NCBI GenBank assembly: GCA_029834535.1
Contig: JAQMWT010000620.1
Coordinates: 1-42,359, forward strand
DNA: 42,359 bases
Reading direction: 5' to 3'
Origin: Chrysophaeum taylorii
Lineage: Eukaryota; Sar; Pelagophyceae; Pelagomonadales; Pelagomonadaceae
Under the pieces are notes generated by a model that searched no databases, was not told where the DNA came from, and worked only from the letters and a program-made list of their open reading frames with translations. The position numbers were made by a program, and so were the translations under genes. Shown here piece after piece: positions 1-41,764 of the stretch. The stretch's first letter is position 1, and each line of letters begins with the position of its first letter.

Positions 1-127
1 CCTTCTCGTGAGTTCTAGATGCCGCCTGTCGTGTTCTGAGGATATAGGGAACATAACCTTTCATTCCCCAACCTTCCAGACGTTCACATGAGACACGATG
101 GTTCCCAGGTGACTTACCACTGCTTAT
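1..127 (+). repeat. Copia 5' LTR, 3' part
   Basis: This matches about 10562-10688, starting at CTAGATGCCGCCTGTCG in both copies. I count about 3 substitutions in roughly 118 aligned bases, plus a 5-bp and two 1-bp indels. Clear identity stops after CACTGCTT. A weak match may continue a little further, so the inner LTR end is uncertain. No convincing primer-binding site is seen. Confidence 0.75.
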
Positions 128-673
128 GTCACTCTGTTAGGTTATGGCCGCCCCTGAGTCCATGGTCAACATGCACGTAACCTATGGGTATTGGCTGTTA
201 CCGCGCCAGCCCAGCCTCGCATGTGACACTTGTCTATATCGCCATTACCATTGGGCTGTATAATATCTTTTGCACACGTGATCGTGTAACCTTGTGTGCA
301 CCTGTTCATTGCGTATTGTCATGTCAATGTTGATGTGTGTAATTGGCTAACCTGTACTCTTGCACATGTTATGGAATATTTTGGTACGTCCGTGTACATT
401 CCATGCATGCACTTAACAAGCTCCTTGAGAGCACCAAAACTAACCAGCTGCCTGAGTGACTACGCTTAGCGACACTACTCTGGACTCACAGCTTGCACAG
501 TCGTCATATAGAACATTTTCCATCGAAATCGATGAGTGTACATAGACCGATAGACAGACCCCCTTAGAATGCCCACAGTGTCAACTGCGTGACTGAACCC
601 ACATGTTCCCAGTCAACTGCTATGGCAGAACACGCAGCACGAGCCGCACCAGGCGATCACAGGTGCGGATATA

Positions 674-1860
674 TTGAAGCTCGAAGCTCCTGTAGTTGAG
701 TTCCATGAAGGGAAACCGGCCAGCTTCAGAACCGCAAGTATCCTTGCAAATCCATATCAGCTTCAACACATGGTCCAGTCATGCCGATGCTTTCCTCGAG
801 TACGACTCGCATGTGGCACTTATATACTCGGTCATGCAAGGACTACGAACTCCGGAATCAAATCTCGATCGCGTTTTCCTGGAATGGAAGACCGATAGGG
901 CTGCTGATCTCCGTTTAGCTGTTGATGAATTACCCCTGAGTATCAGGAATGGCATTTCCAACAACGCTTTCCCCACCTACCTGATGCAGAAGTAGCTCAG
1001 CTAATCACTGTCTGACTGTCAACATTACGTCCTGAAATCAATGCTCGTTTCTTAGAAGAGGAACGAATCTTAAATCGCGCGCACCCAGCCACCGCTTTCA
1101 CTGTGTTGTTCGTGCCCCGGTTACCATGTTTTCGTTAACTGCAGCTGACTGGCACACACCTCACGTACGCTACATTCTTGCATACTTACTTCAATCTTGA
1201 AAGTGTTGGAAAACCGCACTTGCGGCCTGGCCCGCCATCATGAGATATACAACAAGCTATTTACCCAACAAGGCTCGAGCTATTATGCTCATCGCCTTTA
1301 GTCGCTACGAGTCTGTTGCGACTACTGATGTGTCTTATTTGAAACAGCAATTTAACTCTTGTTTATAATCCTAACTGGTATGTCCGTATTTATCGAAGCT
1401 GTCTCATTTAGGCAAATCTCTTACCAACTTAACCAGGAAGAGACTGACCTTCAATTCGACTTTGGCACTCTTTGCAGAAAAACTATGAAGAGATACATCG
1501 AGTATCAAATGGATCGAACAAAAGACGCTTAGAACGCCCTGTTTCTTGGCAACCCTATGTCGAGGTTTATCATCTCAACCAACAAAGTTACTCCTATGCC
1601 TTTACTCATCGGACAAAAGTCTGACTCAAACTGCTAACACACTCGTCGTCACTTCGTCCCAACCTGGTACATCTTCCACGTTTAATGCTAGACGCTTGCG
1701 TAACTCTAATGATGCTCGCCAGCCTTTCTCTCGCAGCGATTTATCGTATTATCGTCCTGGTGATTCTTACGTCACCAAGAAAACTGCCGGACAGTCCCAT
1801 GACCGTCCAATTTACCCCCGCACTTGACGTCCTCTCGGTCTAACATGAAATTATTAGATC
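674..1860 (+). pseudogene. Copia Gag-like region, frame-broken
   Basis: Coding-like text runs through alternating frames. The clearest stretch (about 696-995) has the helical, Trp-containing character of copia Gag (VFLEWKTDRAADLRLAVDEL). A second piece follows at about 980-1110 (LRPEINARFLEEERILNRA). A Ser/Arg-rich stretch ends at about 1827. No intact CCHC zinc knuckle is visible. Assignment as Gag rests mainly on position between the LTR and the protease-like region. Confidence 0.4.
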
Positions 1861-2187
1861 GAACAAACCACACCTTAAACACCCTGCGTAACAGTGTAGC
1901 GAACTCACGAAGCATGTGACGATAATGATACCACGGCTCAGCTACAACAAGAATATCACGTTATTTGAGACCTATACAATCAGCTGATATCCTGTCAACG
2001 ACATCTACTGAGGACAACGTAGTTTACTTGTCTAAACGAACAGTCATGTTTAGAAGACATCATTTTGATGTAGACGTTCATCTATCTCGACCGAAAGTCG
2101 TTCACGTGGAGCCACAACACCATACTGTCGTTACTGCTCCCACCCCAACGCACTCCTCCTATACAAACACACGGGCATCCCAATACT

Positions 2188-2730
2188 GTGTCTAAATCTT
2201 TTACCGCTTCCGCCATCTCGGCTTTACCACCAGCATTATTGTCCTCGCTATCTTCACAGGTCCAATCTGCCCTCAACCTACCACCACAAGCGAAACCCAA
2301 GGGATGCCGATCCACCTCCCTATCGTCATTTGACGAAAAGCACGGCATGGCTGATGAGGCTGACGAACCATCACCACCTGTTCAACCGATCATTATTCCA
2401 ACGAATCTGTTATTGCTGGAAAACTTTTACAGCCACTTCCACTACTTGCCCACATTCGGAAACGCCTTCACCAACTACATGAAGGTAAAAGTGTCCCTCC
2501 ACATTGCTTTTTCCTATATTTTACTCTTGTGCTACCATCTCATTGATGTCCACCTACGATTTCGCAATACCCAATCATATAATTCCATTGGACTCACATA
2601 CGCCGATTGTTATTCAGACGGCAACAGGACAACAACGGGTCACACATGATGTTAACGCAACAGTTATTCCCCTACCAGATCATCACAAGTTGGCTACGTT
2701 AAGATCGACTTCGCTATGTCACGCATGACC
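2188..2730 (+). pseudogene. Copia Gag-Pol junction and protease-like region
   Basis: The segment at about 2188-2370 (LPPALLSSLSSQVQSAL) is low-complexity of the sort found between Gag and protease. About 2535-2700 reads as a retropepsin-like fragment: TYDFAIPNHIIPLDSH occupies the place of the usual DSGAxxH motif, followed by VIQTATGQQRVTHD, resembling the stretch after the active site. The Asp-Ser/Thr-Gly triad is not preserved as such, so the protease is probably dead. The assignment is by pattern and position only. Confidence 0.4.
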
Positions 2731-2780
2731 GACATCTGCTATCCTGAGCATGCTCGAGTGGAACCACGAATCTTACCACC

Positions 2781-4985
2781 GTGTTCAATGATCGAGCTGA
2801 GCCAAAGCTCAGCGCTGTCACGAGCCGCATAGACAAAGATGTACGTATACCTCACTATGCGCAGCTAATTTACCTGCTTCCTTGTATCACTTACAACATC
2901 GCGCGCGACAGCGGCTGGAACTTCGCTCCCTTGCATTTCTCAAGCGATACCATGAAAACGGATCTACTGGCATACTACAATTACCTACTCCAACGAGTTT
3001 TACCAGATCGGCCGGATTCGCCCTTGGTTCTCAATCTGAAACAGAACAAATTTGTTCAGCAAAATACGCCATTAACGCTACTACTCACGGCCAGTTTTCT
3101 CACAATCTCCGTCCTCTGTCTGTCATGTTACTTTGTTCTGGTTTGTCAACTCCGGCGTTCCTGTCTCAAGCCCTAATGACTTAGGCTTAAATATCGTAAA
3201 AGTTGTTGTTGAGTCTGATGATACGCTTGTTCGTATGTTACGCCACCGTTTTCCTACTGTACTATTATTTGAATCTCCCCGCCTTTATTAACCATCTTCC
3301 TAATCTCACCAGAGGAAAGGCGCCACTATTGTGATATAATTGAGATCACCCTCCCTGCACAAACAGGAATTTACTAAAACAGCAAGTCAGAAGACTTACG
3401 CAGCTTGACGATTCTCTTTTCGACGCATGCTGTCTGTCATCAAGCTACGCCCAGCCCTGGTACTCTGGCTGAGACGCCTCCGCATAAGTACTGTCATCAA
3501 GACCACATCACAGTGGCCAACCTATCTATACTACCCTTGATTACTGTGTCGATGTTGTTGATGGTTCCCGACCTACCTGTGGCGACTACCAATCTAGAGA
3601 AAGGTGGATATGCATCGCACGCCATATTCTACTGGACCATTAAACCATCATCGTGGCCCATCCTCCATCCCATCGCCCCCTACTTAAATCGTGGCTGATT
3701 CCTACGGCGACCTCACCATAGAAAACGCCACCACAAAAATTCCACTCGCATCAACGCCTTTGGTACCACGTTCCTGCCCTACATCCCCGCGACCTGACAG
3801 GTCCATATATCTGGTTGTTTATGGTCGCTTTGTGGATAGTCCTGCCCTTCCCCAATTGGCTCCGCCGCTCACTATGCACGCCTTCACTCACAACAGGCTC
3901 ACGAGCAACGTATCACTCTGTTCAATCCGAGTGTACTTACCATCCGTTGTGCTTTAAACGCTCCTCTATGGAGCCATTACCCAATGCACACATCCCTATA
4001 ACGTCAAGATTTTTACAATCCTCTCAACGTGTTTGCAAGCTTACAACTAACTCACCCACTCCTGTGTCCTATTACATAACCGTTTTCGAAACTAACCAAC
4101 CGTCACACAAGGTTACTTTTCATGTCCATCATTACGCCCTCTTCCTAAAGATCGTGGCTCATCTACGCCATTCCCAAGCGCCTTTGGCTACCTAACCTAC
4201 ATATCCGGAATACTGATCCGGGTGTTCCCCGATCCTCCGGATACCCGTTCCTGAGTTTGCACTCTTATCTGCACAGGTTCTGTTCAGCTTACTATGGCTG
4301 ACCTTACAACCACCGACACTCTTTCATTACAGGATTCTCTTTGCTCTGAAGATCATCACCATCTCATAGTCGCTATATTGGGTACCTTCGTGGAAGTGAC
4401 CGCAAACTCGGCTCTAAAATCCACTCAATGCTTGCTCCATTGCCAACCGTCCGAGGGTATGCCAATATTATTTTACTCGACCCTCGCAACGGGAAATTAC
4501 GCTACCCCACTCGACCGGAGTTGATTCGTGCTAACAACCACACCAAACAACAGGAATCTTCCCTATTGTCTCTACGCCATGACCTTTGCTGTGACATGCT
4601 CAGCAATGCTCTGCCTGCCGGTACGTACAGCACTCTGTACAAGCACCTTTCGCTCATCGTCGCCGATATTAATCCCTAATGTTGGACCCTACCTTCCAAC
4701 ATACTGCTGCCGTGACGAAGAAATCCTATGTATCCAATTTCATGACCGCTGACCAAGCCTCCACCACGTGCAGCACAGATACCTTGTCTTTGGCACAATC
4801 TTTTGATGTCTATTTCAGCAATGCTTGACCGAAATGTCGTTAAACTATATCGTCGTCCTACGAAGATACTCTCGCTACTCGTGATAATGAGGATGCACCT
4901 CCAAGTGACCCTGCTGTGCACCAGGATGACGAACCGCCGCCTTCCCTGCCTTAGACACCGAACTCAAGTTCGATGTTCGGCGTAA
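2781..4985 (+). other. Unassigned coding-like spacer inside the copia element
   Basis: This 2.2-kb stretch lies between the protease-like and integrase regions, where typical copia elements have only a few hundred bases. Short open stretches occur in changing frames (for example 2781-3176, 3405-3957, 4294-4679), but I recognise no domain. It may contain the pre-integrase part, an extra domain or an old nested insertion. The recurring 23-nt motif at 4827 lies near its end. Confidence 0.4.
4827..4849 (+). repeat. Recurring 23-nt motif, copy 1
   Basis: GACCGAAATGTCGTTAAACT followed by ATA. It lies just upstream of the integrase module and resembles copies at 6747, 8576 and 9868. Confidence 0.55.
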
Positions 4986-5099
4986 ACGGCACATTCCCGC
5001 TCATCCAATTCCTCGCAAGTCCTCGCACACGGATCCACCGAATATCTCAATGCCAAAGAACGTGCTAACGCTTTCACCGGGTGCATCACTGCCCCGACA

Positions 5100-5835
5100 A
5101 CGTCGCTGCCAAGGCCCCCAACGTACATGCTCGCCCTGGATTCTCTGCTTCTGACATACCATATCGCGTCTTATGCACCGACTGCATCGCACACAACAAG
5201 CGCCACCCGCACAAGCATTTCAATGCGACCAAGCCCTCTTTTGAGCAAACCCACACTGGGCGTGCGACGGCGGCTATGTGACCATCCCATCCGAATGGGG
5301 AGGCTTCACACATATCATCGTCTTCAAGGAACTCATTTCGAAATTTCTCTTGGTGTACTTTACACGCACCACCAACGCCACGGAGTTCACTCAAGCTCTG
5401 GATTTTGTGTATGACTTCTGTCGTACAAACTCAACGTGCACATGCGCACCCTCTACTCCGATTATTCAAGCCTTACTTTAGCCAGCACACATTCCCTGTA
5501 CCGCGTCGATAAGGGCATTCAACTCATTGCCTTCCCGCCGTACATGCACCACTTTAACTTTGAAGTTGAGTCTGCCATCGGTTTCATCGCCTCCGCCTCC
5601 TCAACTCGCCTTCGTTCTCTCCTTAATGCTCACTATCGTGGCGCCAAGATCGTGGAACCCGCTATCATGTTCCCATGGGCGGTGATACACACCGTTCAAA
5701 GCTATAACCTTCTCCCGAACGCCACGCTCGAGCGCATTCATCATGCTATTCTGAGTCCGTGCTACTCTACAACCAACTCAGCACTCCCCAACGATATGCT
5801 CAAGATTTTGGCGCTGAATGTTACCTCCTAGGCTC
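5100..5835 (+). pseudogene. Copia integrase region, frame-broken
   Basis: A Cys-x2-Cys piece (YRVLCTDCIAHNKRH, about 5160-5210) fits the end of the zinc-binding pre-integrase region. The catalytic core follows: IPSEWGGFTHIIVFKELISK (from about 5284) matches the GY-R-FLVFVDD-S region. About 5436-5700 holds GIQLIAFPPYMHHFNFEVES, corresponding to the family pattern GI-h-S-PY-p--NG-vER, with the Glu in place. The second Asp region reads RTLYSDYSS instead of RTDnGxEF. At least two frame changes and this altered motif mean it is not functional. The FGAECYL piece after 5790 is in another frame. Confidence 0.7.
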
Positions 5836-6740
5836 CTCCGCCACACGCTCCTTCCGCGCCTTTCTCGCTCACACCCCACACCACTATGCAAGACCATGTC
5901 ATTCAGAGGGGGACAAGGACTCCTCATCCTCAGAGGGGGCACTCCCCACCTCCTTCAGCTCCTCCTTCTTCGTCCCCTACTCCGGCCTCTTCTCCCTCTT
6001 CTGACGCTACCGCCGACGAATCTGGCTCTATGTCACCGCCGCCCTTGCTTCCTTCTTACAGAAATTTTTGCACAAGATGACCTCATTCTTGTCCCAGGTT
6101 CCAAACAGCCTAACACTCGCAAGGCCACTTGGAAACTATCCGAGCCCGGTTACAATCGTCTACTATTGGTGCTTACAAAGCCGCTGGTGGCAAGCTCGCC
6201 GATTTCCGCTGGGATCTTCGCCACCACTCTTACGTTCAAGTCTCCCGCCCTCTCCGCCCTTCATCTCCGTGGTGGTATCCTCTGGTCTGCTATCTGCTCA
6301 GAGGGGGAACATGCGTTGTTAGCTCGTCTCTTTTCCCGTTGCGTACTGACTTACTTGCCCGCTACCCGCACGTCGATGGTTACTTCGCCCACGCCAAGTG
6401 CGCATCCAGCATCCCAGCTGCAACCTTTTAACTGCTGATGGTTCACCTACGTGCCCTATTCCTCAGCCCCTTTTATCTGCGTTCACTGAACACGCTGCTG
6501 CCTTCGGCACTCTTCCTTCAATATGCACTTACGTACCTGGCGCCGACCAGCTTTATTGATCACAACTCATCCGAGTTTGGCGCTACTTCTGCATCTCTGG
6601 CTGACTTGGAGAATACCTTCTGGTCTCTAAAGAGTTTATCACCCCGGTCTTACGTACCGACCCTACTATCCATATCCAACTGGAATCTGCCCTACTACTC
6701 CTACTGACGCTGTTTCCGCTTATCCCGAAGTTGCGCACAC
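5836..6740 (+). pseudogene. Copia Pol linker, Pro/Ser-rich
   Basis: Between integrase and RT lies a Pro/Ser-rich tract (about 5886-6070, HSPPPSAPPSSSPTP) of the type that links these domains in copia Pol. It is followed by about 650 bp of weak coding character in mixed frames (LILVPGSKQPNTRKATWKLS at about 6082). No domain is recognised. Confidence 0.4.
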
Positions 6741-6746
6741 TGCCTC

Positions 6747-6769
6747 GACCGCAACGTCGCTAAACTATA
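6747..6769 (+). repeat. Recurring 23-nt motif, copy 2
   Basis: GACCGCAACGTCGCTAAACT followed by ATA. It lies directly before the RT module, 1,920 bp after copy 1. Confidence 0.6.
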
Positions 6770-6789
6770 ATTCACCAGCCACTGTTGGT

Positions 6790-8536
6790 CCTGACGAATA
6801 TAAGGTCCAAGAAGCGGACGTTTCCATTGAATATAAACTCAAGTGCCTCCGCGGCTTGTAGCCTGAAAACAGGCACGCCTACCTCAAGGCCATCGCCAAG
6901 GAACTCCACGACATCATCCGCTTTGGCTGCTTCAAACTTTCCTTACCCGACGGTGTCTCTCGTCCTATTGACAGCAAGATGGTGCTGAAGATTAAAACAG
7001 ACTCTGCAGGCAAATACGTTAAGCACAAGGCTCGCCTCGTACTACGTGGCTTCCTAGCATCTCTTGCCGATTTCTTTGGTACCTTCAGCCCCATGGCCAC
7101 TATGACCGCAATCCGGGTACTACTAGCTATTGCAGCATACAAGCAATTGCCTGTCTACCGCAGACGTCCCCGCCTTCGTTCAGTCTGACATCGATGCCAA
7201 TGTCTATGTTCAATTACCAGACGGCATCAAGCTTATCGACCCCGATGACGCTAAGTACAAGGGCCGACGTCTACCGAAACTGCTGAAGTCACTTTATGGA
7301 CTTCGGCAATCACCATCCCTTTGGAACAAAGAGATAGACGGCTTCTTCCGTAGCCTTGGTTACGCCCTGCATTCGGACTCTTGCCTATATGCTCGAGTAT
7401 CCGCACATGCTAAGTTCGTCGTATGCAGTCTGTCTGTAGACGCGACATTATTGTGTCCAATGACGACCCTCTTCACTGAATTACAGGATGCCCTCCACAA
7501 ACGGTATGCTGTAGAGCAGTTTGAACCTGTCCATACCCTCCTAGGCATGCGTGTGTGTCGCACATCTGACGGCTCCATTTCTCTGGATGTGCAAGCCAAG
7601 CTGGATGACCTTCGCTGATCACCCAGTCTTGCAGCAACTGACCCCGCTTAAATATCCTATGTCATCGTCCTTCAAGTATAAAGATGGCACTCCCAGCACT
7701 GAAACAGGTTGTACATCAATTCGCACTTTGCAACCCTCCTTGGCAAGCTGGTGTTCATGCAAGTTGCCTGCAGACCTGACTTCTCGCATGCCTTGGGCAG
7801 ATGTTCGCGCGGTATGCATGCACATTTGCTTCGCTACCTCAAGAAGCCGGAAAACCGCTCACTTCGCCTCTGGCTTCACCCTAAAGGTAATGCCATTGAA
7901 GCTCACCTTCGCACTGTCTCCGCTAATCGAATTGATCTATCCACTGTGGTCGACTACCAACCACGGATGTACTACTGCATGCCCCCCTTAGTTGCCATGG
8001 TTGACGCTGACAATGCCCCTTCCTTAGCACAGGAAGATAGGAAATCTACCACCGGGTTTGTCTTCTATCTTTTCAACTTCCTGGTTGGAAAAGCAAACTT
8101 CAACCGATTGTCTCCTGCTCAACTCATGAAGCTGAGTTGATTGCCCTCAGTATTTGTGCTGATGAAGCTGTTTGGCTACGCAAGCTGCTGGAACTCTCTT
8201 TGTCGTCAACCCCACCTTCTACGTCAACAATGCTAATGGTGAGAACACCGCTGACCCTGTCGACTTCGATGACAATGACAACCCAATTGCTGAAGATATG
8301 CGCTTCATCAGAAGCCTACCTCCTTGTCTGACAATGCTGCCGCTGTTCACACCCTAATAACCCAGATGGGTCCTCTCGATCCAAGGCACTGTCGACCGAT
8401 GGAGATCCGTGAGCCATCGCTTCAGAAAATACGAGTCCATCATGTTCCCGGCAAGCTGAACGTGGCGGATGGTTTACAAAGCCACTTGCTGCTGAGTTCT
8501 CCACCTCGCTCTACTCGGTATGCATCATGCCTCTGA
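6790..8536 (+). pseudogene. Copia reverse transcriptase and RNase H, inactivated
   Basis: The order of copia RT blocks is clear: KARLVLRGF (about 7030), TADVPAF carrying the first Asp (about 7150), LLKSLYGLRQSPSLWNKEID (about 7280), then SLSVDATLL at about 7428, where the family has YVDD. The second catalytic Asp is thus Ala. Stops occur at about 7616 and 8138. RNase H follows with VDADNAPSLAQEDRKSTTGF (about 8000), THEAELIALS (about 8130), SDNAAAVHTL (about 8325) and VPGKLNVADGL (about 8445). The region uses at least two frames with 1-nt shifts. The missing YVDD and the stops show the enzyme is dead in this copy. Confidence 0.85.
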
Positions 8537-8575
8537 CGACAATCCTTTACAGGATTGAAGATGCCTAACCCTAGT

Positions 8576-8598
8576 GACCGCAACGTCGTTAAACTAGC
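8576..8598 (+). repeat. Recurring 23-nt motif, copy 3
   Basis: GACCGCAACGTCGTTAAACT followed by AGC. It lies between the end of RNase H and the extra 3' ORF region, 1,829 bp after copy 2. Confidence 0.6.
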
Positions 8599-8663
8599 AA
8601 ACTAGCCCTGGCCCTACCTTCTTTTGCCACATTTTTTTTGTACGTGTCGTGTGAGTGTCACTC

Positions 8664-9834
8664 ATGTCTTTTTCTTGGCACTCCCGTGGCCGTGGCCGTG
8701 GCATCTCTCCAGTCGTTCGAAGGACAATTCCACGCTCGCTCTCCACGGCCGAGCCTTCTCCCAAGTTGGTTCAAAAGCGACAACCCATAACCACTGTCAC
8801 TCCTACTACCTCCCAGGCTGCTACTGTCTCACCGACACCAGCTGAACCTGTTTTACTACAATCCCTAACACTCCAGGATGGCCTCAACATGGATTTTGCC
8901 CTGATTGAACGAGGATTCTCTCTTTTTGAGAGCTTCCGTACTCCTGCTACGCCCTTTTTCTTCTGTATGAGCGGAAATCTCTACGGCACTCAACTCGATA
9001 TATGAATCTGCTGACTCTTTACTGCTTGTGGAACTTACGACCTTCATATCTATGCGCCTACCCATTACTACATTTTGGAAGCTGCTCCTGCTATTACTTC
9101 TATTGGCTGCTACAGAGGCCCCAAACGTGAACGTTTCATCCTGTCATCCTACTGTACGCAATGCCTCAACGATTTAGGGCAGCCTACATTTCTTGCTTCT
9201 ACCACATATAATTCGAAGTCACAAGCACCTAGTGAACTCCCCACTGAAGTACTGAGTCACCTCAACACAGATGACCACAAGAAGAATGGTCATATTCCCA
9301 TCTCAACTATCACCACTAACATTTGTTGTGCTTGTCACAACACCGATCAGGCGCCCATACAACCTAACGTATGTGCACGTAATGCTACCTCCTTCCAACC
9401 CCTGTAATGGTGCTCAGCTGGTCATATACGCGCACCATCATACGCCGTATCATTTGCCAAGGAGCTACATATTCTCTTGACCAGAATCTAACGCAACACT
9501 CGTCACTTGCTCATTTAGTCTTATCAGTAATCGATGCAGCCACAGCTCCACTACTCAACTACCATTGGCACTGGATCTTCGGCTTATTACTCAGATGCAC
9601 CTGGAGCATCTTAACTTTCTTGTAACGCTCGAGCGAACACAAGCTCGTAAAACTCAGGCTGTGTTCAAGCCCACCAAATACCACCATGTGATTCATACTG
9701 TTATCCAATCGTGGGTACAACACCTTGACGACTACGTATCATCCTCAGACGATACAAAGCCGCCATCACTCTTGGATGTAATGTTCGGTCCCACCTATAC
9801 TTCGGCCGAACGTCAAGACTTTCTGCACTTCTAA
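8664..9834 (+). pseudogene. Extra coding-like region downstream of copia RNase H
   Basis: A start at 8664 opens an Arg/Gly-rich N-terminus (MSFSWHSRGRGRG) that stays open to 9005. Further coding-like pieces follow in other frames: about 9075-9407 with several Cys and His residues (NICCACHNTDQ), and 9565-9834 (WVQHLDDYVSSSDDTKPPSL). I recognise no family. Copia elements usually end just after RNase H, so this is an additional 3' module. The Arg/Gly start could be a nucleic-acid-binding protein. An env-like role is possible by position only; no signal peptide or clear membrane segment is seen. Confidence 0.45.
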
Positions 9835-9867
9835 ACACGAAATACCCCTACTTGCACAGCATGTGTT

Positions 9868-9890
9868 GAACAAAATGTCATTTAACTACC
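9868..9890 (+). repeat. Recurring 23-nt motif, divergent copy 4
   Basis: GAACAAAATGTCATTTAACT followed by ACC. It overlaps the start of the coiled-coil ORF and is the most diverged copy. Confidence 0.4.
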
Positions 9891-10264
9891 ACTTCCCTCA
9901 TCAGAATCTACTATGGAAACGTCTTCGCCATCGACACACCCGCTCCTCTGCCTCGCCTGATGATGTCGATGCATTGCGTCAACAAGTCGAACAACTCCAG
10001 GAAACTCTTCGCCTATATATTCGCAAGGTCAACACCCTTAGCGCTGAGAATCTATCTCTACACACAGATCTACAGGCAGCCATTGCTTCAATTACCTCCC
10101 TGGAAAACCGGCTCTTTCCTCCTACAGCCAATGCACACGTGTTGCCTGTAACACTGTTCAAGATCACAGAGCTACTGTCTCGCTTAACGCTAACAGCTCC
10201 ACCAAGTCCAAGCCCTAAGACAGCCCTAAGACACCCTGTTACACTCTTGATGCCTCTTATGTGA
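9875..10264 (+). CDS. Small coiled-coil ORF at the 3' end of the copia element
   Basis: An ATG at 9875 opens about 129 codons to a stop at 10262-10264. Residues about 30-85 form a leucine-rich heptad pattern (VDALRQQVEQLQETLRLYI), which predicts a coiled coil. The C-terminal third is Pro/Ser/Thr-rich. No family is recognised. It lies about 115 bp before the inferred 3' LTR. A structural (Gag-like) or accessory protein is conceivable. It is the longest unbroken frame in the element. Confidence 0.45.
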   Translation: MSFNYHFPHQNLLWKRLRHRHTRSSASPDDVDALRQQVEQLQETLRLYIRKVNTLSAENLSLHTDLQAAIASITSLENRLFPPTANAHVLPVTLFKITELLSRLTLTAPPSPSPKTALRHPVTLLMPLM

Positions 10265-10379
10265 CCTCTGCGACCATCAAGACTGTATTCTCCTTCCTTT
10301 CCTTTTTTTCTTCTTCATCATCTTCTTTCTCAAGAGATGCTCTACAGTCGCACCTTGCGCTTAAGATATCTCGAGGGGG

Positions 10380-10688
10380 TGCAGAGAAATCTGCTGCCTC
10401 TTACCCTTATCCGTCCGTTGAGTCCGTTGAGAACGTGATCTCTTCCTTACCCTTCTTCTTCCTTTCTACACAATCTAATAGTCCTCTGATTTGTGCCTAC
10501 GCTCATCATCATGGTCTAGCGCGTCCCGAGGTATGTAGCACTATACACTTAACCTTTCTCGTGTAGGTCTAGATGCCGCCTGTCGTGTTCTGAGGATATA
10601 GGGAAAATAACCTTTCATTCCCCGAATTAACCTTCCAGACGTTCACGATGAGACGGGATGGTTTCCCAGGTGACTTACCACTGCTTGC
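10380..10688 (+). repeat. Copia 3' LTR, truncated
   Basis: The start is inferred from a purine-rich tract (GAGGGGG at 10373-10379) followed by TG, as expected for a polypurine tract and LTR boundary. The part from about 10562 matches bases 1-127. Similarity ends at about 10688, next to the gypsy LTR remnant, so the LTR end is missing. Confidence 0.6.
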
Positions 10689-10707
10689 TAAATACTCTGC
10701 AGAGGGT

Positions 10708-10741
10708 GGGTAAGCCTTAGCGGTCAGGAGTTGCCGCCACA
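10708..10741 (-). repeat. Gypsy 3' LTR, remnant of the first 34 bp
   Basis: Identical to 20065-20098. It is preceded on the minus strand by the purine-rich AGGGGAG (about 10746-10752), a likely polypurine tract. The rest of the LTR, about 250 bp judging from the 5' copy, is missing, and copia LTR sequence follows almost directly. Confidence 0.7.
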
Positions 10742-10771
10742 GGACTCCCCTGGTGAGAACACGAGCTGCCC

Positions 10772-11350
10772 TCAGCGAGTCCGGCGAGAAGCACGAGCCT
10801 TGGCTGAATGAGCACCTCGAGAACGAATCTTCTTGTAGGCACGTTCAACGACAGGTTCAGGAACGCATCCACCACGCAAAGTGAACTTAGGAATGAACAC
10901 ATCGATCTCATGCGGGGCAAAGTCGGTGACACAAGGAGTGGTACTGTTGTTGACCTTGGTCTTGTCGGTGAAACTGCGACCGTCCACGTCCTTGTATTCC
11001 GGCTTAAGCTTGCGAGTAGAGAGATGTGAAGTAGGCTTGTAATAAGAAGCCTTGTCATGGGGACCGAGATCAGCATAGAAATGCAGAGCGACTCGATCAT
11101 TCACATAATCATAGGGTTCATAAACCTCAGCGACATAAATCTTCTTTCGCCAATCGGACCGTTTATTATCCGAAATCCGAAAGATAACGAACTTACCATG
11201 CTTGTAATCATCCCGAAAGGTCTCTTTGGGCTTGGGCACAGCTCGATCGACCACTGGAGAAACCATCACAGGGGTGATCTGGCTAACATGAACACAACGG
11301 CGTTCGGGAGGAGAATCAAGAGACTCAATCCTGTAAGTGACTGGGGACAA
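10772..11350 (-). pseudogene. Gypsy integrase C-terminal tail domain
   Basis: This continues the integrase after its GPF motif (LRPEWRGPFVIL, ending about 11354) in a shifted frame. It starts SPVTYRIESLDSPPERRCVH, the usual small beta-barrel following the GPY/F motif. The tail has the pattern HGKFVIFRISDN, then WRKKIYVAEVYE, then ALHFYADLG and KLKPEYKD. This W-K-aEV-vHFY layout recalls chromo/SH3-barrel or BAH-like tails of other LTR-element integrases that may bind chromatin. The family assignment is by pattern only. The extreme C-terminus is basic (KKIRSRGAHSAKARASRR). Confidence 0.5.
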
Positions 11351-11353: not shown

Positions 11354-12485
11354 TTACAAAATAACGAATGGACCGCGCCATTCCGGTCGAAGCTTGTTCT
11401 GAAGAAAAGGGATGTAGAGCAGAACATGTGAACCTTCTTCATATTCCACATCAACATGGTCCGCATTATAGGCGAGACGTTGTTTACGAAGAGCCTTCTC
11501 ACGAGCTTCGTTCACCGTAGCGGTATAGAACTTCAGCCTCTCGCGAGTCTCTGCCACAACATCGGAGCGAGTTTTCGGCAGGCGGCGGACATCAAGATCC
11601 ATGATCGTGTAATCGGTTGGCAATAAAGGCTGCCGGTTAAGACGAAGCATGAAAGGTGAGATCTGAGTCCCCGGAATAAACTTACGATTGTAACAGAAAG
11701 CAATGTACTCCGCGAATTCGGGCCATTCCGCGATCTTGCGGTTTTGAAGGCACGCACGGAGGAAAGCCTTGATAAAGCGGTTGACCCTTTCCGCAGGATT
11801 AGCCTGAGCATGATACGGAATCGTGGTACTATACCGAACATTGAAAGATGACAAAACTCTTCCATCAACTTGTTGACGAACTCTTTCCCATTGTCGGTAC
11901 GAATCCTCTGAGGTAGATAACCTTTGAGTAATATATTCGCGACAAAAGACTCGAGGATTGACTCAGCAGTCTTATGGTGTAGTACGTCAAGAATCAAGAA
12001 ATGAGAAAATGGATCAAAAAGACGATGAGATATGTCTCGGGACCAGCACTGGGCAAAGGTCCAAACAAATCCATACAAAGGACGACACAATCACCATCAT
12101 ACACCGGTTGCTGAAGCAGATCTGCTCTCTTTGGTTCAGGCGTACAAGCTTTCTTGCACACTATGCAACCAGCAATGTAAGCACCCACCTCATTAGACAT
12201 ATGGGGCCACCTAAAAAGCTCAAGTATCGACTGCACTGTACTTTGACGACCCATATGACCACCATTGAGAGGCGTGTCATGGTACAATCGGATGATGCGC
12301 GTCCGTAAAGTTCGGGGTGCGACTATCATCGGGTGCAAGTCGGGTGCGGCACGGTAGAGAACTCCTTTCACCACTTGATAGCGATAATTGGCTCCGTACC
12401 GACGAAGAGAATGGCCCTGAGCCATGCGATAACGAATGTCCTCGCAAGTAGCATCAGTGATCTGCTCTTTGGCTATCTCTACCAA
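11354..12485 (-). pseudogene. Gypsy integrase, frame-broken
   Basis: The H2C2 zinc finger is visible at about 12117-12260 (YHDTPLNGGHMGRQ, then CIVCKKA). The D,D,E core is present in pieces: the first Asp in MDLFGPLP (about 12050), the second in RIRTDNGKEF (about 11895, next frame), and Glu in HAQANPAERVNRFIKAF (about 11800, third frame). A GPF motif ends the 11354-11854 frame. All three catalytic acidic residues survive, but two frame changes (about 11994-12090 and about 11850) break the protein. Integrase would insert the element cDNA into chromatin. Confidence 0.85.
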
Positions 12486-12707: not shown

Positions 12708-14333
12708 TCAACAGAACGAGGGAGTTCTTGGCACACCAGATTCACCAAACTCGTCCGTCTCGATGACATGATCTATAGGATTGCGAGAGAGACAGCCAGG
12801 GATGCTCCTTCTCGGCGACTTCCCTGTCTTGTAACCCAATTCAGGATCAAAATTGGCGAGCCGCATCGCCCATCGAGCCAACTGCCCAGACGAGTGCTTC
12901 GCCTTTCTTAAAAAAGTCAAGTTGCGATGATCTGTTTCAAGGATCGTCTTGTGACCTTCGATATAAGAGCGGAAATGCTCAAGAGAAAGAAAAACTGCCA
13001 GGAGCTCTAGCCGGCGAGGCTCATAGTTCCGCATCTTTTTCGGCACAGCTCGGCTCCAATACTCAATTACTCGTTCCTCTCGTGTCACCTTGCTGGTTCC
13101 GTCCTTGATTTCCACGAGCTGAAAAAGATACGCACCCAGACCATCCTTAGAAGCATCCGAGCGGATCTGAAAGGGAAGATCGTAGTCAGGATGATAAACT
13201 CCACGAGAATCCACCAAAGCTTCGATGATCGTGTTCCATGCCTTTTGGCACTCAGGCGTCCACTCAAACTTAACGCCTTCAAGACACAATCGCCTAAGCG
13301 GCTCCACAATCTTCGAATAATTCTTCACATATCCCATCATAATATCGTCGACAAACGCGACCAAGTCCTTATACATCCATTTGGACAAATCGCTAGCCAT
13401 CTGCTTACAAAAGAGAGCTCCTGCTGTTTTTACTCCTAGAGGCAAGCGCAAGAAACTATGGGCTCCAAGTGGACTAACCATCGTAACAGCGTCCTGAGCA
13501 GCGGCGTCCAAACGTAAGTTCTGATAACCCCATCGAATATCAATGCACGTCCGCCAACGGCGCATGGCAAGAAAAGCCAAAGCACCATCTTGACGAATAT
13601 TCGGCCAACTGTCATTGACCAGCTGATCATTGAGCTGACGCAAGTCAACGGCAGCACGAAAAGCATTCGACGTCCCGGCCTCGGCTCCCTTCTTAGGCAG
13701 CATCAGTACAGGGAATCCCCACGGAGAGTTCGCCGGTCGGATGACTCCATCACGACACCACTCAGTGATCTGCTTTCTGAGACACTCGAGCTTTGCGGGC
13801 GTTAACCTATAAGGCGTCATCTTGATCGGTCGTGCGTTTGCGTCTTTAAAGCGTAGAGAAACCGGTGGCGAGTCCACGGGTCTCATAATCGGATCAAAGA
13901 AAGCCCACGCGTATTGCACGCAATGGCTCAACATCATCTTCGCATCATCATCCAGATGCGGGTTGTCGGGAATTCCTAGATCTCGAACAACCTTCTCAAC
14001 TTCTTCCTTCGTCGGAATTACGACTTTCATCGCATCATTGTCCTTGACGTGCTCGGGAATCTGCGGTAACGGTACACCGTCCGCATCGCGCGGCGCATCC
14101 TTCCATGGCACATCGAACTTTTCTTCGTATTTGAACCTCACCTCAGGGTGGCTCTTATTGATCTTTTCACCTTTGACGCGCACATTCGGCTCGCTCCTTA
14201 CTTTCGGCTCCTGTTCAGGTTCAGGATCCGGCGGAACGTCCACTTTTGATTGTCGGGGGCAGCAGAAAAAGCATGAGCCGTCCCCGGCGCATCTGGTGGA
14301 AGCGGAAGCATAGGAACTTCTGGCGGTTCCCAT
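12708..14333 (-). pseudogene. Gypsy reverse transcriptase and RNase H with internal RT deletion
   Basis: A 541-codon open frame. After a Pro/Glu-rich linker, RT runs from about residue 145: TPYRLTPAKLECLRKQI (173-189), VIRPANSPWGFPVLMLPKK (197-215), the first Asp in CIDIRWGYQNLRL (D265), LPLGVKTAGALFCKQM, and FVDD (327-330) in place of YVDD. Right after VDDIMM the protein jumps to GYVKNYSKIVEPLRRL, normally about 70-80 residues further on, so the RT thumb/connection is missing in frame. RNase H follows with D393 (RSDASKDGLG), E443 and D468 (ETDHRNL). The frame does not begin with a natural start; it continues Pol by frameshift. Confidence 0.88.
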
Positions 14334-16435
14334 TTAGTAGGATCCTGGAGATCATCCTTGGACACCCACTTAACGACACGAGTACGCGTATTTAACAGCG
14401 GAATCTCTACGTGACGAAAGGTGGTGTCGGAGATTCGTAAATATTTCTCAAAGGATCGATCTGTCGGGCTCAACGCAGTCGGCAGGACTTCACCACTTTG
14501 GCGGGAGCCTCTGGTCACGGAGTTGTGCAGATCGACTGCTAAAATCGCAAGAGTATCTGGAGGGACGACAGATGCTAAATGTTTGAACGAATCTGTCTTA
14601 GACAAGCTAGCCCAATCATGATCCACCGGCATCGTGAGCAACTCGGCCGTCATTTTGAGAGTCAAAGGCGGAGTGTCCGAGCGATGCGGTCCCAAACGAA
14701 GAGGAACTCGCGTAACGGTGTAAGCCGTATCTGTTGCTTCTCGGGACGAGCCAAGATTATTCAGCTGGAGAAGGTGGCGTTCATGAGCATAACCTAAAGC
14801 TGCAGCAAATTTTTGTTGCATGTTCACACATGTCTTCGGAGCCTCTTGCAAGTGCAGTGGGTGACTGGAAACCAACAATCGCACGCGAGAGCTCATCAGA
14901 GTAGGTGTGATATCATGAAAATTGACGACGTACACGTAAGGGTGTAAGCGCGCTATATACGAAATAATGGACGCCTCCTGTTCAATCAGCCACATCATGA
15001 AGCCAGCCATTTTGCACAGCTTCATCGTCCAGTTAGTGGCCGTAACACCCTTGCCAACATCTCTGGATGTCAAGTTGCAGAGTGCTGAATGAACGCAGGG
15101 CGGAGACGCTATACACATCGACGATGACCATTCCGCTTCAGGCAAATAAGCCTTGATCAACCGGAGGGTCGAGTCATATCGTCCACAGAGCGTGTGCTGA
15201 ACCACAGGTATCTTCGGAAAATTCTTCTGATGAACCTTGTTGGCAGCTGTTGACGAGTCAAGAGCAAGGACGACTCGAAACGACGTCCCGCACAACTCGT
15301 TCGCTCGTTGCAGTCCTAAAGTACTTCCTCCGGCGCCGCTGAAGAGCATCACAACCTTGCGATACGTGATCGGCACCCAGTGGACCTTTTCAAACCTTCG
15401 GCGAATCTCGCATTCTGTAACTTCTCGGCATTTCTTTTCCTCCTCGTCAGTTCGTCGGTCGAAATCGTCGTTACCGAGCGATTCTTGACGAGAATTCTTC
15501 TTCTTATCGGCAGAAGGAGACGCCTTCTGCACTGAGCTCAAAAGCATCAGTTCGGGAGCCGCATTGCCTTGAGTAAGATGGCTTGCGACCGAAACAGTGA
15601 ATGATAGGTTAGCCTTGTTAGATTCGGCTTCACCATCCTTCGTTAAATCGTCGACCGTCTCAGCATTCAGCTCGTCATCAAAACGAACAATATCGCCCAA
15701 AGCAAGGACTTCACCTTGAGTGATCACGGTCGGCATATCCTGGGTAGAAGATATCGCCACTCGAGCTGCGAACTTATCATCATCCTCAGGAGAAGAACAC
15801 ATTCCATCGACTACCCCGAGTTGCTCGTACCCAGAAGACGTAGCAACATAAACTTGCCCAGTTTCCACGGGGTCTGAAAGAGCGACTGTCACGCAGTAGG
15901 TGCGCCCAGGCTCGACCTTCATCGTGCGCGCAGCATAGGCTATCACTTCATAGGCATCGCTGTTCGAACTTTGAGAAGGCGTAACTGGAGGAACTCCCCA
16001 AGTAGTCGAAGCTCCCGCTCGTTTCGGCGGTGGACGCTGGAGGTCTTCAATCTTGCACAAGCGAGCGTAGACTCGGTTCTCAACTGTGCTCAGGCTTTGC
16101 TGCATCGCATGGTGCTGTTGCCCATAAACCTGAACTACCACGGGACTGCTCTCGTCATAAGTTGTTCTGAACGTCAAAATCGGAGAATCGACTCGTCGAT
16201 CCTGCACCTTTAACTTCTTGCGCCCGTAAGCGACTTGTGTGAGTATAAACGCAATGCGATTCCGCGGGTAGTCCACTATGGCTCCAAACACCCGAATATC
16301 GCGCGCTCCCAGCAAAAATAGATGATTAGTATCGGCCACAATAGCAACAACTGGAACGGCTACGTCGTCCGCAAGCGCAATCCGCAATGCAACCCATTTG
16401 TGGATAGTCGTTTTGTTCAATCCTGACCCATACAA
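14198..16435 (-). pseudogene. Gypsy Pol segment: protease end, linker and C5-cytosine methyltransferase
   Basis: A 745-codon open frame that begins by frameshift from the upstream Pol frame, not at an ATG. Residues about 29-64 (VADTNHLFLLGARDIRVFGA) fit the second half of a retropepsin. A linker of about 290 residues follows, partly acidic and Lys-rich. Residues about 353-640 form a C5-DNA methyltransferase domain (separate entry). The last 100 residues are a Pro-rich linker leading into the RT frame through another shift at about 14200-14330. Nothing else in Pol sits between protease and RT, so the methyltransferase is part of the polyprotein. Confidence 0.85.
14516..15379 (-). other. C5-cytosine DNA methyltransferase domain inside gypsy Pol
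   Basis: Motifs of the C5-methyltransferase family appear in order. Motif I is VVMLFSGAGGSTLGLQRANE (residues 361-380, 15326-15343 for FSGAGG), the AdoMet site. A motif II-like ALDSSTAANKVHQKNFP follows. Motif IV is CIASPPCVHSA with candidate catalytic Cys447 (codon 15095-15097). A motif VI-like LIEQ could supply Glu485 instead of the usual ENV. Motif VIII-like VVNFHDITPTLMSSRVRLL keeps the RxR pair. Motif IX-like LTLKMTAELLTMPVDHDW and motif X-like FKHLASVVPPDTLAILAVDL close the domain. The target-recognition part between VIII and IX is short, about 70 residues. The known reaction is transfer of methyl from AdoMet to cytosine C5. The divergent motifs VI and X leave activity uncertain. Confidence 0.85.
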
Positions 16436-16968
16436 AGTGCGCTCGACTGGAAGATCGCCCCGGTCAAGGATGATGCTATCCTTTCCAGTTTTTCAACCAT
16501 ACAACGATAAATATAAGAGACATCAGCGATTCCATCCATGCCTAAAGTCGTTGCAAACTTCGGCCCGTCTCGTCGTCTATAAATATGACCAACTATAAAC
16601 GTAAGGGTACCAGGGTCCAGGCAACCGATGGTGATGAGATCTTGCTCGATCTTTTCCCCATCGCTCGGCGACAGTGCAGTGTGATGACATCGTATCTCCG
16701 GTTTCGCATCGCCCGGCATCTGCATCGTCACCGCTGCTATATCTGGCGTTCTACATCTCGCCGCTAAATCTATATTGGCGCTCGCCGCTTCGGCTGCTCC
16801 CTCATTCCCCAGTTTCGCTGACAACAAGTTCTGACACTTCTCAATCGGAGGCACATATAACTCCTCCTTTATCTCTTCTGGTAATCGTCGTTTCTCGTCC
16901 ATCAAATCGGACATTCCCGTCAACTTCTCCTCCATCGGCGCCGCTGTGGTCTGCTCTGCTGCGACCAA
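16417..16968 (-). pseudogene. Gypsy Pol N-terminal segment with retropepsin-like start
   Basis: This frame precedes and overlaps the 745-codon frame. Residues near its end (GPKFATTLGMDGIADVSYIY) resemble the retropepsin start in which a hydrophobic strand leads to D-T/S-G-A-D-x-S. Here the triad reads MDG with an extra residue, so the catalytic Asp is ambiguous. The reading passes to the next frame at about 16420-16435. The first half is an acidic/hydrophilic linker without a recognised domain. Confidence 0.5.
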
Positions 16969-17420: not shown

Positions 17421-19343
17421 CTACGTCATACTCGTCATCGTAATGTCGATGACGTCGGCGCCGGCGCGAATTGCGACTAGAGCTAACGATCGTCTAGAAG
17501 GTGATCGTCCGTCTCGCTGTCGTGTAGAAAACGACGTAGTATCCTTGGTGCCTCTGACCTCGCTCACCATGGTCGCCATTGTGTTTCCAAGATCGGTGAG
17601 GGCCGTTTGAATTTCATTAGAAGACTCCGATCCGCGCGTGGCGTTCGCATGAGATGCATCATCACGCTTCGCCCAATCGGACCGCGATATGGGCTGCTTC
17701 TTCTGCTTACGAATTCGCTTCCACATCGCACAGTAGTAACGATCCGGATCGCGGTTGCAAACTACGCGATTTCCGTGTTCATCTTCATCATGGGTGGTCC
17801 AGAAGAACCCACAGTGCGGGCACGTTCTCTTGCCCCGCAGAAAAGGATCTCGTAAGATCAGCGGATCCGTATCCCCAGACGGTTTATCCGCATCTTGCTT
17901 GGCGTGTTGATCGAAGGCCATAGCTCGACCTCCCCGCCCTCGCGGCGGTTTATTCGATTTCGGATTAGGAGGGCCTTGGTCCTTCTCCTCCTCCATCAAC
18001 TTTCGTAAGTCGTTCTCGAGCCGCGTAATAAGCGCTACCATCGACTTAAAAGTCACGTAACTATCAGGATGTCCGCTCCTCATAGTCCGCACACGGGCCC
18101 TCAACTCCTTGGACGTCAATCCACTGAGATGCTGGTCAAGGATATCGACATCATCCATCGTGCGGCTGGACACGGAACAAAACTCCAAGGCTTCAGATTG
18201 GAATCTGGTACAATACGTCTGGACGTGCCGCTCCCCAGACTTCTTCGGAACTGAAGCCTGGGTGACCTTCCGAAGCTTGTCAAGCAGCTCCTGCTGCGTG
18301 CGCGGAGGTCGACAAGTCGATCTAAAATAATCCAAAATCTTGTCGCAATACGTCTTGTTAAGACGACGGATACGACGAACCGAGGCTCCATGCTCTTCAT
18401 CGTCAGTATCCAATTTCAAGTAAAACGACGGACCGTGCGGTAGCTCATCGCAGAGCTCCTCGTATTTCTGCAAGTGTTCCTCAAAAATTGGAGCAACGGT
18501 GTCCCGCACATGCACAGGTAGTGGGTAACGTAATTTCTCGACCGAGTAATGGTCATCTGCTAAAGTATGCATCATCGCCGCCGAATCCAAATTGAATTGC
18601 CGTTGGTCTCGGCCGTCGATGACGAGTTTGAAGTTATCAGGCTTCAAACTGGAAGTGGGTCGACGGGATCGGCTCAAGTTGCCCTTTTCGAAGGCGCTGG
18701 CAACTGTCTGCGATATTCCCCGCGATAATTCCCGTAAAATTTTCGTACCTTCATTCTCAACGTCCGCCCTACCCTCAGTCTCCGTATCGACTCGGGGCGG
18801 AGGTTCATTCCCCGTTTCAGCGTTCCTTTCCGGTTCAGGCGGCCTCACGGGCGTTTCCGGTTCGGGTCGACTCACGGGTCGTTCGCGGCTACTCTCCCGA
18901 CGCGTACGTTCGGCTAACAATTCATCACGTTCACGACGAAATCGTTCAACCTCTTCACGTAGGGTCTTCGAGGTCTCAGTCTCTTGCTGTAATGCATCAT
19001 TGAGCATATCAACTTCTCGTCGAGCCGCTTCATCTTTCTCTTCAGCCCTTTCACGAGCAAAAAGCTCAGCTAATCGTTCATTTTCGCGACGTCTCCGCTC
19101 GAGGTCTTCACGAAGTCGACTTCGGGCTGCAGATCCGCGCTCAATAGTAACACGCTCGCCACGGTCCGGAGTCGTTGGACTCAACGGCGAAAAAAAGGCA
19201 GTATCCGGAGGCTCATCAGGGGGCACGTCAGCAACGTCGACTGCCTCGGCCTCTCTTAATTCACCTTCCTCGCGGCCTATCGCAGGGGCGGCGGGAAGAA
19301 CTGGAGGAGATTCTTCCTCACGCACGTCTGCGTTTATCTCCAC
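17421..19343 (-). CDS. Gypsy Gag polyprotein
   Basis: A 640-codon open frame. Residues about 75-145 are a charged coiled coil (Arg/Glu heptads), followed by a Pro/Glu-rich stretch. Residues about 230-455 fit a retrotransposon Gag/capsid domain (helical; GERHVQTYCTRFQSEALEF, then TSKELRARVRT). Residues 508-538 carry CPHC, H518, H523, C529 and C538, a Cys/His cluster in place of the CCHC knuckle. An Arg/Gly tract (PPRGRGGRA) precedes it. The frame opens with GTG four codons after a TGA, and the first ATG is deep inside the coiled coil. The start may therefore be lost, spliced in, or reached by frameshift from the leader ORF. Gag would form the particle and bind element RNA. Confidence 0.75.
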   Translation of the reverse strand: MEINADVREEESPPVLPAAPAIGREEGELREAEAVDVADVPPDEPPDTAFFSPLSPTTPDRGERVTIERGSAARSRLREDLERRRRENERLAELFARERAEEKDEAARREVDMLNDALQQETETSKTLREEVERFRRERDELLAERTRRESSRERPVSRPEPETPVRPPEPERNAETGNEPPPRVDTETEGRADVENEGTKILRELSRGISQTVASAFEKGNLSRSRRPTSSLKPDNFKLVIDGRDQRQFNLDSAAMMHTLADDHYSVEKLRYPLPVHVRDTVAPIFEEHLQKYEELCDELPHGPSFYLKLDTDDEEHGASVRRIRRLNKTYCDKILDYFRSTCRPPRTQQELLDKLRKVTQASVPKKSGERHVQTYCTRFQSEALEFCSVSSRTMDDVDILDQHLSGLTSKELRARVRTMRSGHPDSYVTFKSMVALITRLENDLRKLMEEEKDQGPPNPKSNKPPRGRGGRAMAFDQHAKQDADKPSGDTDPLILRDPFLRGKRTCPHCGFFWTTHDEDEHGNRVVCNRDPDRYYCAMWKRIRKQKKQPISRSDWAKRDDASHANATRGSESSNEIQTALTDLGNTMATMVSEVRGTKDTTSFSTRQRDGRSPSRRSLALVAIRAGADVIDITMTSMT

Positions 19344-19404: not shown

Positions 19405-19809
19405 TCACGTTGATTCCAACAACGCTATCTGTCGCTGTAAAAACAGCACTCGCGGAATTCCAATCCGCTGGCAATTCAAAAATGCCCGTGGGTAGCGATC
19501 CCACTCGCTAAACAGCTTCCACCGTTCAGCTATACCAAAATCAATTCCCGGGAGAATGCGCTGCGATTTCCAACTCGCACGCGTGTTCGTCGTCACTCGG
19601 ATCGTACGAACACAAACAACGTTCGCGTATATTCTCAACGCAAGCCGGTCCAATGGAACTCCGTGTGCTTGATCAGGGCGCACGTACAAATCCGGACCAC
19701 GTAATACAACACTTACGGCAGCAGTCGCTCGTCGGCGACCGATGTAATCGCACGATCTCATATTCTCCACCACGTATGGCGGCACAGAAAAACCTTCCCG
19801 ACCCCCAAG
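19405..19809 (-). other. Leader ORF between gypsy 5' LTR and Gag
   Basis: A frame of about 130 codons runs from just inside the inferred 5' LTR edge to a stop 62 bp before the Gag frame. It has some coding character (IDFGIAERWKLFSEWDRYPR) but no recognised domain. It could be a leader peptide, the lost N-terminus of Gag, or chance. Confidence 0.3.
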
Positions 19810-20098
19810 TGACAAAGGGGGTACTCACCGACTCGTCCTAGACCTCACTGAACGAGGAAAACACGGACGCGGGGTCGGATATGCTCGCCACACACCTTGC
19901 TCACGCTCACCAAGCCTCTCAACAAGATGGAGAGATGGTATATGATAGCAAGAATACTACAAGAATACGGCAAGAATGCTTCTCACAAGAGAGAGGTATG
20001 ATGTCGTCACTAAGAAGATAGGGAAAGGTGTCCCGTTGAACGGGTATCAAGCCTCAAGAAGGGGGGGTAAGCCTTAGCGGTCAGGAGTTGCCGCCACA
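19810..20098 (-). repeat. Gypsy 5' LTR (inner end inferred)
   Basis: The outer end is set by the 34-bp repeat and begins TG on the minus strand. The inner end is placed at a CA dinucleotide (minus strand TTTGTCA) at 19810-19811. It is followed two bases later by TGGGGGTCGGGAAGG, a possible but unproven primer-binding site. Only 34 bp of the partner LTR survive, so the length of about 289 bp cannot be checked. Confidence 0.45.
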
Positions 20099-38000: not shown

Positions 38001-38478
38001 CCTCCTGGTCTTGAAACAATATCCGATCCTGCCTGGTATGGCACCCAGAGGACCGTCGATTCGCTCGGTCAGTCGATCGTCTCTGGACACCTGTGCCAGT
38101 CGCGGCGATGCAATCTCTCGCCGCCTCCGGATCATCCTCCTGCTGCTGCTTCTTCTTCTTCTTCTTCCAGGGGGGGGGGCACAGGGGTTGTTGTTGTATA
38201 GTGACACACTTTTTTTGCGTCTTCGTGTGTGCATCCTAACTACTAATCGACAGATGTTTGTCTGTCTGTTTGTTTGTCTATGTGGGCGGACGTTTCCGGA
38301 CGGTCCGTTAGAAGTGCTTGCTTCCTACATGCGGAAGACCAGAGGGGAAGGACCGGGTGAAGAGTCGCGAAGCCCAACGTTCGCGGCATTTTCAAACCAA
38401 AGCATAGCGTGAGGATATATAGATGCGACGCCAAAGCCAAAGCCGAGCCAAACGTCCGACGCGCCAAAGTCGTAGGAC
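38001..38478. other. Intergenic region, low-complexity tracts
   Basis: It contains a CTGCTGCTGCTTCTTCTTCT tract at about 38141-38168 followed by a run of nine G, and a TGTTTGTCTGTCTGTTTGTT tract at about 38256-38276. TATATAG at 38415-38421 precedes an Arg-rich 70-codon frame (38423-38635) whose stop overlaps the ATG at 38632. I do not call it a gene. Confidence 0.5.
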
Positions 38479-41710: not shown

Positions 41711-41764
41711 TTCCGGCACGGGGGTCCGGAACGTCCGTTTGTTCTGTCTGTCCCTCGATTTAGG

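Follow-up and report, generated by a model that had tools for sequence, protein, structure and literature searches.

A C5-methyltransferase-type domain between protease and reverse transcriptase in a Ty3/Gypsy-type retrotransposon family of the alga Chrysophaeum taylorii

The DNA analysed here, referred to as the window, is an entire contig (C620, 42,359 bp) of the pelagophyte Chrysophaeum taylorii; the genome searched comprises 70.8 Mb in 697 contigs. The window contains a retroelement of which all parts lie on the minus strand. It starts with a 5' LTR of about 325 bp (19775..20098), which begins TGTGGCGGCAAC and matches both LTRs of other copies. An ORF of 640 codons in the Gag position (17421..19343) follows, with a zinc-finger-like string near its C-terminus; a Pfam search with this ORF gave no family match worth the name. 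A protease-like segment (16268..16536), recognised by eye (DGIADVS ... LLGARDIRVFGAIVDY), is divided between two frames and has no Pfam match. Its C-terminal part belongs to an ORF of 745 codons (14198..16435), which continues into a domain of C5-methyltransferase (MTase) type of 288 codons (14516..15379) and a linker. RT and RNase H are encoded by an ORF of 541 codons (12708..14333), to which RT_RNaseH matches above cut-off (E 1.4e-26) and RVT_1 below it (E 3.3e-5). The remaining parts are an integrase zinc-binding domain (11997..12485; Integrase_H2C2, E 1.2e-14, above cut-off), an integrase core (11533..12090; rve, E 8.1e-6, 26.5 bits, under the cut-off of 32.6), the C-terminal end of the polyprotein (10772..11350; Integrase_p58_C, E 4.6e-4, under cut-off) and a 3' LTR remnant of about 40 bp (10703..10742), which shares 98% identity with the beginning of the 5' LTR.

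The order protease, RT, RNase H, integrase is that of Ty3/Gypsy elements, the protease being placed by eye. As judged from this order and from the LTRs, the element is a Ty3/Gypsy-type LTR retrotransposon. The original prediction had described an LTR-bounded unit with protease upstream of the MTase and RT, RNase H and integrase downstream. The outline is right, but the window copy departs from it in detail: one of its two LTRs is a remnant, the protease is visible only by eye and is split, and RT and RNase H, though present, are in a different frame from the 745-codon ORF. The MTase and RT frames meet near a poly-C tract at about 14265-14275, and some 265 bp of RT directly after the FVDD motif, present in other copies, are missing. 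With its short 3' LTR, its RT deletion and its broken frames, the window copy is defective.

Just upstream of the 5' LTR lies a gene with a CW-type zinc finger (PF07496; 20635-21879). Two stretches of the right flank (41733-42359 and 38234-38279) are seen again within or close to several Gypsy copies (L029, L030, L031 and L034), and also on contig C314 (L048), as if a short repeat had inserted.

The five MTase motifs quoted in the original prediction are located in the 745-codon ORF in the order given there, namely FSGAGG (15343-15326), SPPC (15106-15095), SSRVR (14893-14879), LTLKMTAELL (14665-14636) and VVPPDTLAI (14569-14543), all on the minus strand. The Pfam family DNA_methylase (PF00145), which it had proposed as a check, matches the ORF above cut-off (E 4.5e-5, 23.5 bits against 22), the isolated domain (E 3.1e-6, 27.3 bits) and 14 of 14 aligned copies of the domain. 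The Pfam match spans motifs I and II only; motifs IV to X were assigned from profile and multiple alignments with bacterial MTases. A six-frame comparison of the domain with phage and plasmid records (E <= 1) gave two phage and seven plasmid matches, every one of them annotated as a DNA or DNA-cytosine methyltransferase. The best of these is a gene on a Sphingomonas plasmid (L072), with 32% identity over residues 8-139 and E 3e-5. Profile alignment with four phage or plasmid MTases gave E 1.3e-10 over 124 columns, from motif I to motif VI; motifs IX-X aligned too, but weakly, in a separate stretch (E 0.0024, probability 12%).

Alignment with the bacterial enzymes also shows where the domain departs from them: EQE stands in place of the ENV of motif VI and AS in place of the GN of motif X, and there is little sequence between motifs VIII and IX. 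The catalytic cysteine (Cys95), the FSGAGG of motif I and both arginines of motif VIII are present in 24 of 24 copies, and the proline preceding the cysteine and the glutamate in the place of ENV in 23. On these comparisons, the Gypsy domain is a genuine C5-MTase-type domain, with a likeness greater than chance. AlphaFold, run on 14 rows, gave a mean pLDDT of 39.6. A set of 5.8 billion proteins yielded no relatives at E <= 1e-3, either for the cut MTase domain, in a search whose length range leaves out long relatives, or for region 340-745 of the ORF, and viral contigs yielded none either.

The genome was searched with the window MTase (135 of 1002 candidates scored) and with the MTase of a second subfamily (135 of 1004), and the union of both searches gives at least 175 places with the Gypsy MTase. 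The two subfamilies, A (including the window) and B, are 83-84% identical in the MTase. Contigs C10 and C297 carry near-identical places and are of similar length, which suggests that they are allelic; because the assembly may hold such contigs, the MTase places are not all separate insertions. For at least 75 of the 131 scored RT places, an MTase lies on the same strand 0.5-2.5 kb upstream, the usual distance being about 1055 bp. The other 56 have none among the matches listed, and in the one of these that was examined, an MTase adjoins the RT.

An LTR pair surrounds the MTase in five of the eight copies compared (C5, C174, C619, C246 and C10, the pair being in two pieces in the last two), and is absent from the stretch fetched for C147, C22 and C665. 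In these five the LTRs are direct repeats beginning TG; the two members are identical in C5 (336/336), and 94.3% and 88.7% identical in C174 and C619. The C5 copy, with its identical LTRs, has one continuous open frame of 3067 codons. No exact target-site duplication was found at the LTR ends of any of the five, even C5, and a primer-binding site was sought by eye without result. Copies in which the MTase is absent or lies outside the LTR pair were looked for, and there was none among those examined. The central claim, that of a Gypsy-type element with a C5-MTase-type domain within it, is borne out, and in all five copies where an LTR pair was found the domain is inside it.

The MTase and RT are in one frame (anchored in RT) in 10 of 24 copies and not in the other 14; the 24 are 21 subfamily-A copies together with C5, C22 and C671, some of them with other indels or stops. 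The poly-C tract between the two domains is at the same place in the copies. As the frames differ near this tract, a programmed MTase-RT frameshift was considered, but the length of the tract varies so widely between copies that the difference is more simply explained by slippage or by a sequencing error in the homopolymer.

The selection acting on the domain was estimated from 21 subfamily-A copies, these being the window copy plus 20 taken from the 28 highest in a ranking by MTase similarity. Their 210 pairs give a mean dN of 0.0117, a dS of 0.080 and a dN/dS of 0.146, where dN is biased downward as a result of the ranking. The comparison of A with three B copies does not have the same form of that bias, and gives a dN of 0.11 with a saturated dS (mean about 2.2; one of 63 pairs was not computable). 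For 13 A copies with an RT readable in one piece (78 pairs), dN/dS is 0.136 in the MTase and 0.36 in the RT. A stop codon within the MTase domain is found in one of 24 copies. The MTase domain is under purifying selection.

The window element has a ratio of observed to expected CpG of 1.21, against 1.34 for the body of C5 and 1.28 for the right flank; the two LTRs measured (window 19775-20098 and C5) have values of 0.77 and 0.82. In the left flank (window 1-10700) the ratio is lower (0.91) and the TG content higher than elsewhere in the window. At CpG, changes from C to T and from G to A occur at about 1.55 times the rate per site of those at other C/G sites. Since CpG is not depleted in the body, and changes at CpG are raised only to this extent, there is no footprint of lasting CpG methylation there. 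Any mark made by the MTase may be in another sequence context, short-lived, or on RNA, or there may be none.

The type of MTase was assessed by comparison with known classes. The likeness is greatest to the bacterial type, then to DNMT2, with none measurable for DNMT5 and DNMT3A. Bacterial Dcm-type MTases give the best sequence likeness, aligning at motifs I, II, IV, the glutamate of VI, VIII, IX and X. They differ from the Gypsy MTase in standing alone as enzymes, in having a longer target-recognition region and in keeping ENV and GN intact. Against the host DNMT2, BLASTP gives E 2e-4, and the profile comparison with DNMT2 gives E 5.8e-8 over 74 columns. DNMT2 also heads the list of solved structures, with no better than E 0.085. 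The SPPC of motif IV is shared with DNMT2 and the VVPP of motif X with the bacterial rows, while the CFTK-like segment and the GNSLNV-like motif X of DNMT2 are absent in an alignment with five DNMT2 rows. DNMT3A and DNMT5 were rejected as parents, as neither could be aligned: the profile values are E 0.18 for DNMT3A (a weak test, with one reference row and the first 167 residues) and E 0.83 for DNMT5 (also weak, with two rows). The SNF2 part typical of DNMT5 has no Pfam match in the Gypsy element. DNMT1, DNMT4 and DNMT6 entered the comparison as chains in the solved-structure search only. Placement does not draw on a 17-row tree, in which the branches of the elements are long and for which the tool gave a warning of long-branch joins. 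On the basis of these comparisons, we call the domain a bacterial-type or unassigned C5 MTase.

Retroelements bearing MTases are known from other algae. The original prediction mentioned examples from dinoflagellates and charophytes, and these correspond to the Symbiodinium and Klebsormidium nitens cases described in PMC5890265 (de Mendoza et al., 2018), namely SymbioDIRS-Dnmt3, SymbioLINE-Dnmt and KnitGypsy-Dnmt3; the same paper cites Iyer et al. (2011) for links between MTase and RT. KnitGypsy-Dnmt3 is a close parallel: it has a DNMT domain in a Gypsy Pol ORF, is present in several copies and is described as having Ka/Ks below 0.2, comparable to the purifying selection seen here (PMC5890265). 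It differs in being Dnmt3-related, whereas the domain described here is not recognisably DNMT3 (as judged against DNMT3A), and in its DIRS-like repeat arrangement, as against plain LTRs where a pair was found, for example in C5. When tested in yeast the KnitGypsy domain gave no methylation, a result that its authors regard as inconclusive (PMC5890265). In Symbiodinium, hundreds of intronless DNMTs under purifying selection are described within retrotransposons (PMC5890265); these are DIRS and LINE elements in dinoflagellate hosts, rather than LTR Gypsy elements, and the SymbioLINE domains form an orphan lineage, as the domain described here may also do. The elements of the present family are of another kind, as they have LTRs. 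De Mendoza and colleagues are also said to have found that two of the SymbioDIRS-Dnmt3 domains methylated CG in yeast.

According to a 2025 survey in Mol Biol Evol (PMC12344493), LTR Copia and DIRS elements contain some members of DNMT3, so that a link between Copia and DNMT as such is already in print. Those cases are in streptophytes and dinoflagellates, are of DNMT3 type and are attributed to the 2018 paper, in which the element from the charophyte is given as Gypsy; the main text of the survey makes no mention of Aureococcus or pelagophytes. Among stramenopile algae, the Ectocarpus element Sola1-1_Ec32 (PMC12477816) likewise carries a methyltransferase, but it is a DNA transposon with a separate gene of N4C/N6A type, where the present case is an LTR element with a C5-type domain. 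DNMT5 and DNMT6 have been named in pelagophytes (PMC9998398), and DNMT5 in Aureococcus (PMC3145265). The main text of the C. taylorii genome paper (PMC10366177) does not mention transposons. Our literature search found no C5-MTase in a stramenopile LTR element, although an earlier notice is possible in Iyer et al. (2011). Whether this lineage is a separate acquisition was a question that the original prediction left open. A separate acquisition is now favoured, because the domain has no measurable likeness to DNMT3A, as far as one reference row can tell, and Dnmt3 is what the Gypsy and DIRS elements published so far carry. By its sequence, the family looks like a separate capture of a different type of enzyme.

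The genome contains other C5-MTases. PF00145 has at least 57 matches in it (123 scored of 474 candidates), out of which a DNMT2, a DNMT5 and 18 further loci were examined. The DNMT2, on C634 (L045), matches solved DNMT2 chains with E 3.9e-39 and has both the CFT segment and GNSL; the neighbouring gene encodes a light-harvesting protein (best matches VCPI-6, PCPI-8 and FCP8). The DNMT5, on C621 (L046), has a SNF2 part. All 18 further loci (L011-L028) align to a domain of a Ty1/Copia polyprotein, one of them being the query's own place. Two such Copia copies, L047 (C96, 3597-9455) and L048 (C314, 201-5807), have a C5-MTase between protease and integrase. The C96 ORF contains a protease-like DGAS, PF00145 (E 1.1e-7), RVT_2 (E 1.6e-38) and rve under cut-off (E 0.006); the C314 copy has no rve match. 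The Copia MTase has a dN/dS of about 0.1 (six pairs from four copies), and a piece of it has no relatives in the 5.8-billion-protein set at E <= 1e-3. A common origin of the Gypsy and Copia domains was considered, and none was seen in sequence or profile comparison; they could be related by great divergence. It is possible, though we would stop short of calling it probable, that Gypsy and Copia elements in one alga independently captured unrelated C5-MTases that are not recognisably DNMT3, in both cases directly after the protease. If so, the same place taken twice would imply that an MTase there is repeatedly useful to LTR elements.

Taken as a whole, the reading that we favour, as somewhat the more probable one, is that a Gypsy family captured a C5-MTase of bacterial or unassigned type between protease and RT, and uses it to mark its own cDNA. 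The two halves of this proposal differ in strength. We place considerable confidence in the anatomy and the separate capture. Two subfamilies that have diverged from each other both carry the domain, which in several copies sits between paired LTRs. The marking of cDNA by the predicted MTase is tentative, and so is the idea in the original prediction that the enzyme would methylate the DNA of the element or help it to hide from host silencing. The sequence of events would be that a Ty3/Gypsy family which captured the domain multiplied in the algal genome; that the MTase is made as part of the Gag-Pol product and enters the particle with RT; and that it acts on the nucleic acid of the element, most likely the new cDNA, before or at integration. 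New copies would therefore arrive already marked. In favour of the reading as a whole are the identity of the domain, its invariant cysteine and purifying selection, the intact C5 frame, and the CG methylation reported in yeast for two SymbioDIRS-Dnmt3 domains. Counted against it are the body without CpG depletion (though the LTRs and the left flank are lower), the limited excess of changes at CpG, the EQE and AS substitutions, the short region between motifs VIII and IX, the downward bias on dN from the ranking, the differing MTase and RT frames in 14 of 24 copies, and the yeast result for KnitGypsy.

Several of these points would also suit a noncatalytic domain whose role in the polyprotein is structural or lies in binding nucleic acid. 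DNMT3L offers a parallel for such a role. The loss of ENV and GN and the short target-recognition region are consistent with it; but the cysteine, FSGAGG and the RxR arginines in every one of 24 copies, and the glutamate of ENV in 23, argue the other way, because a dead enzyme would not need its cysteine, and we regard a noncatalytic role as unlikely. Slightly less likely still is an RNA methyltransferase whose target would be the element RNA or a tRNA. DNMT2 comes second in overall likeness, by BLASTP and profile and with the first place among solved structures, and the element body has no CpG footprint, both of which would fit an RNA substrate; however, bacterial DNA MTases fit better (E 3e-5, and E 1.3e-10 by profile), and the domain lacks a CFTK-like segment and has VVPP as its motif X.

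Two further alternatives concern the origin and location of the domain. It could be a descendant of DNMT3, as in KnitGypsy-Dnmt3, that has diverged past recognition, or it could have arrived with an element related to KnitGypsy-Dnmt3. The superfamily is the same and the place in Pol is of the same kind (PMC5890265), but DNMT3A gives no more than E 0.18 by profile, for its one reference row and first 167 residues, and SPPC in motif IV with VVPP in motif X fits bacterial types; with DNMT3A as the DNMT3 compared, we consider this descent improbable. Finally, the window alone, with its 3' LTR remnant and broken frames, might be read as a host MTase gene that lies next to a Gypsy element and outside it, or as a join made there in the assembly. 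The other copies already refute this, since the same order is found on many contigs (at least 75 of 131 RT places), within LTR pairs and, in C5, in a continuous frame, and we give it practically no weight.

Mobile elements are commonly silenced by cytosine methylation, and elements that carry an MTase of their own are therefore a puzzle. If the reading given here is right, the known cases are joined by a further lineage of algae and by another type of enzyme, with LTR elements of two superfamilies inside a single genome of about 71 Mb and one or more MTase-bearing copies of very recent date. An LTR element carrying an MTase of bacterial type, which is what the Gypsy case would represent, is not described in the literature surveyed. 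Repeated capture by Gypsy and Copia elements, if true, would point to a shared step in their life cycles, for example the marking of cDNA or RNA inside the particle.
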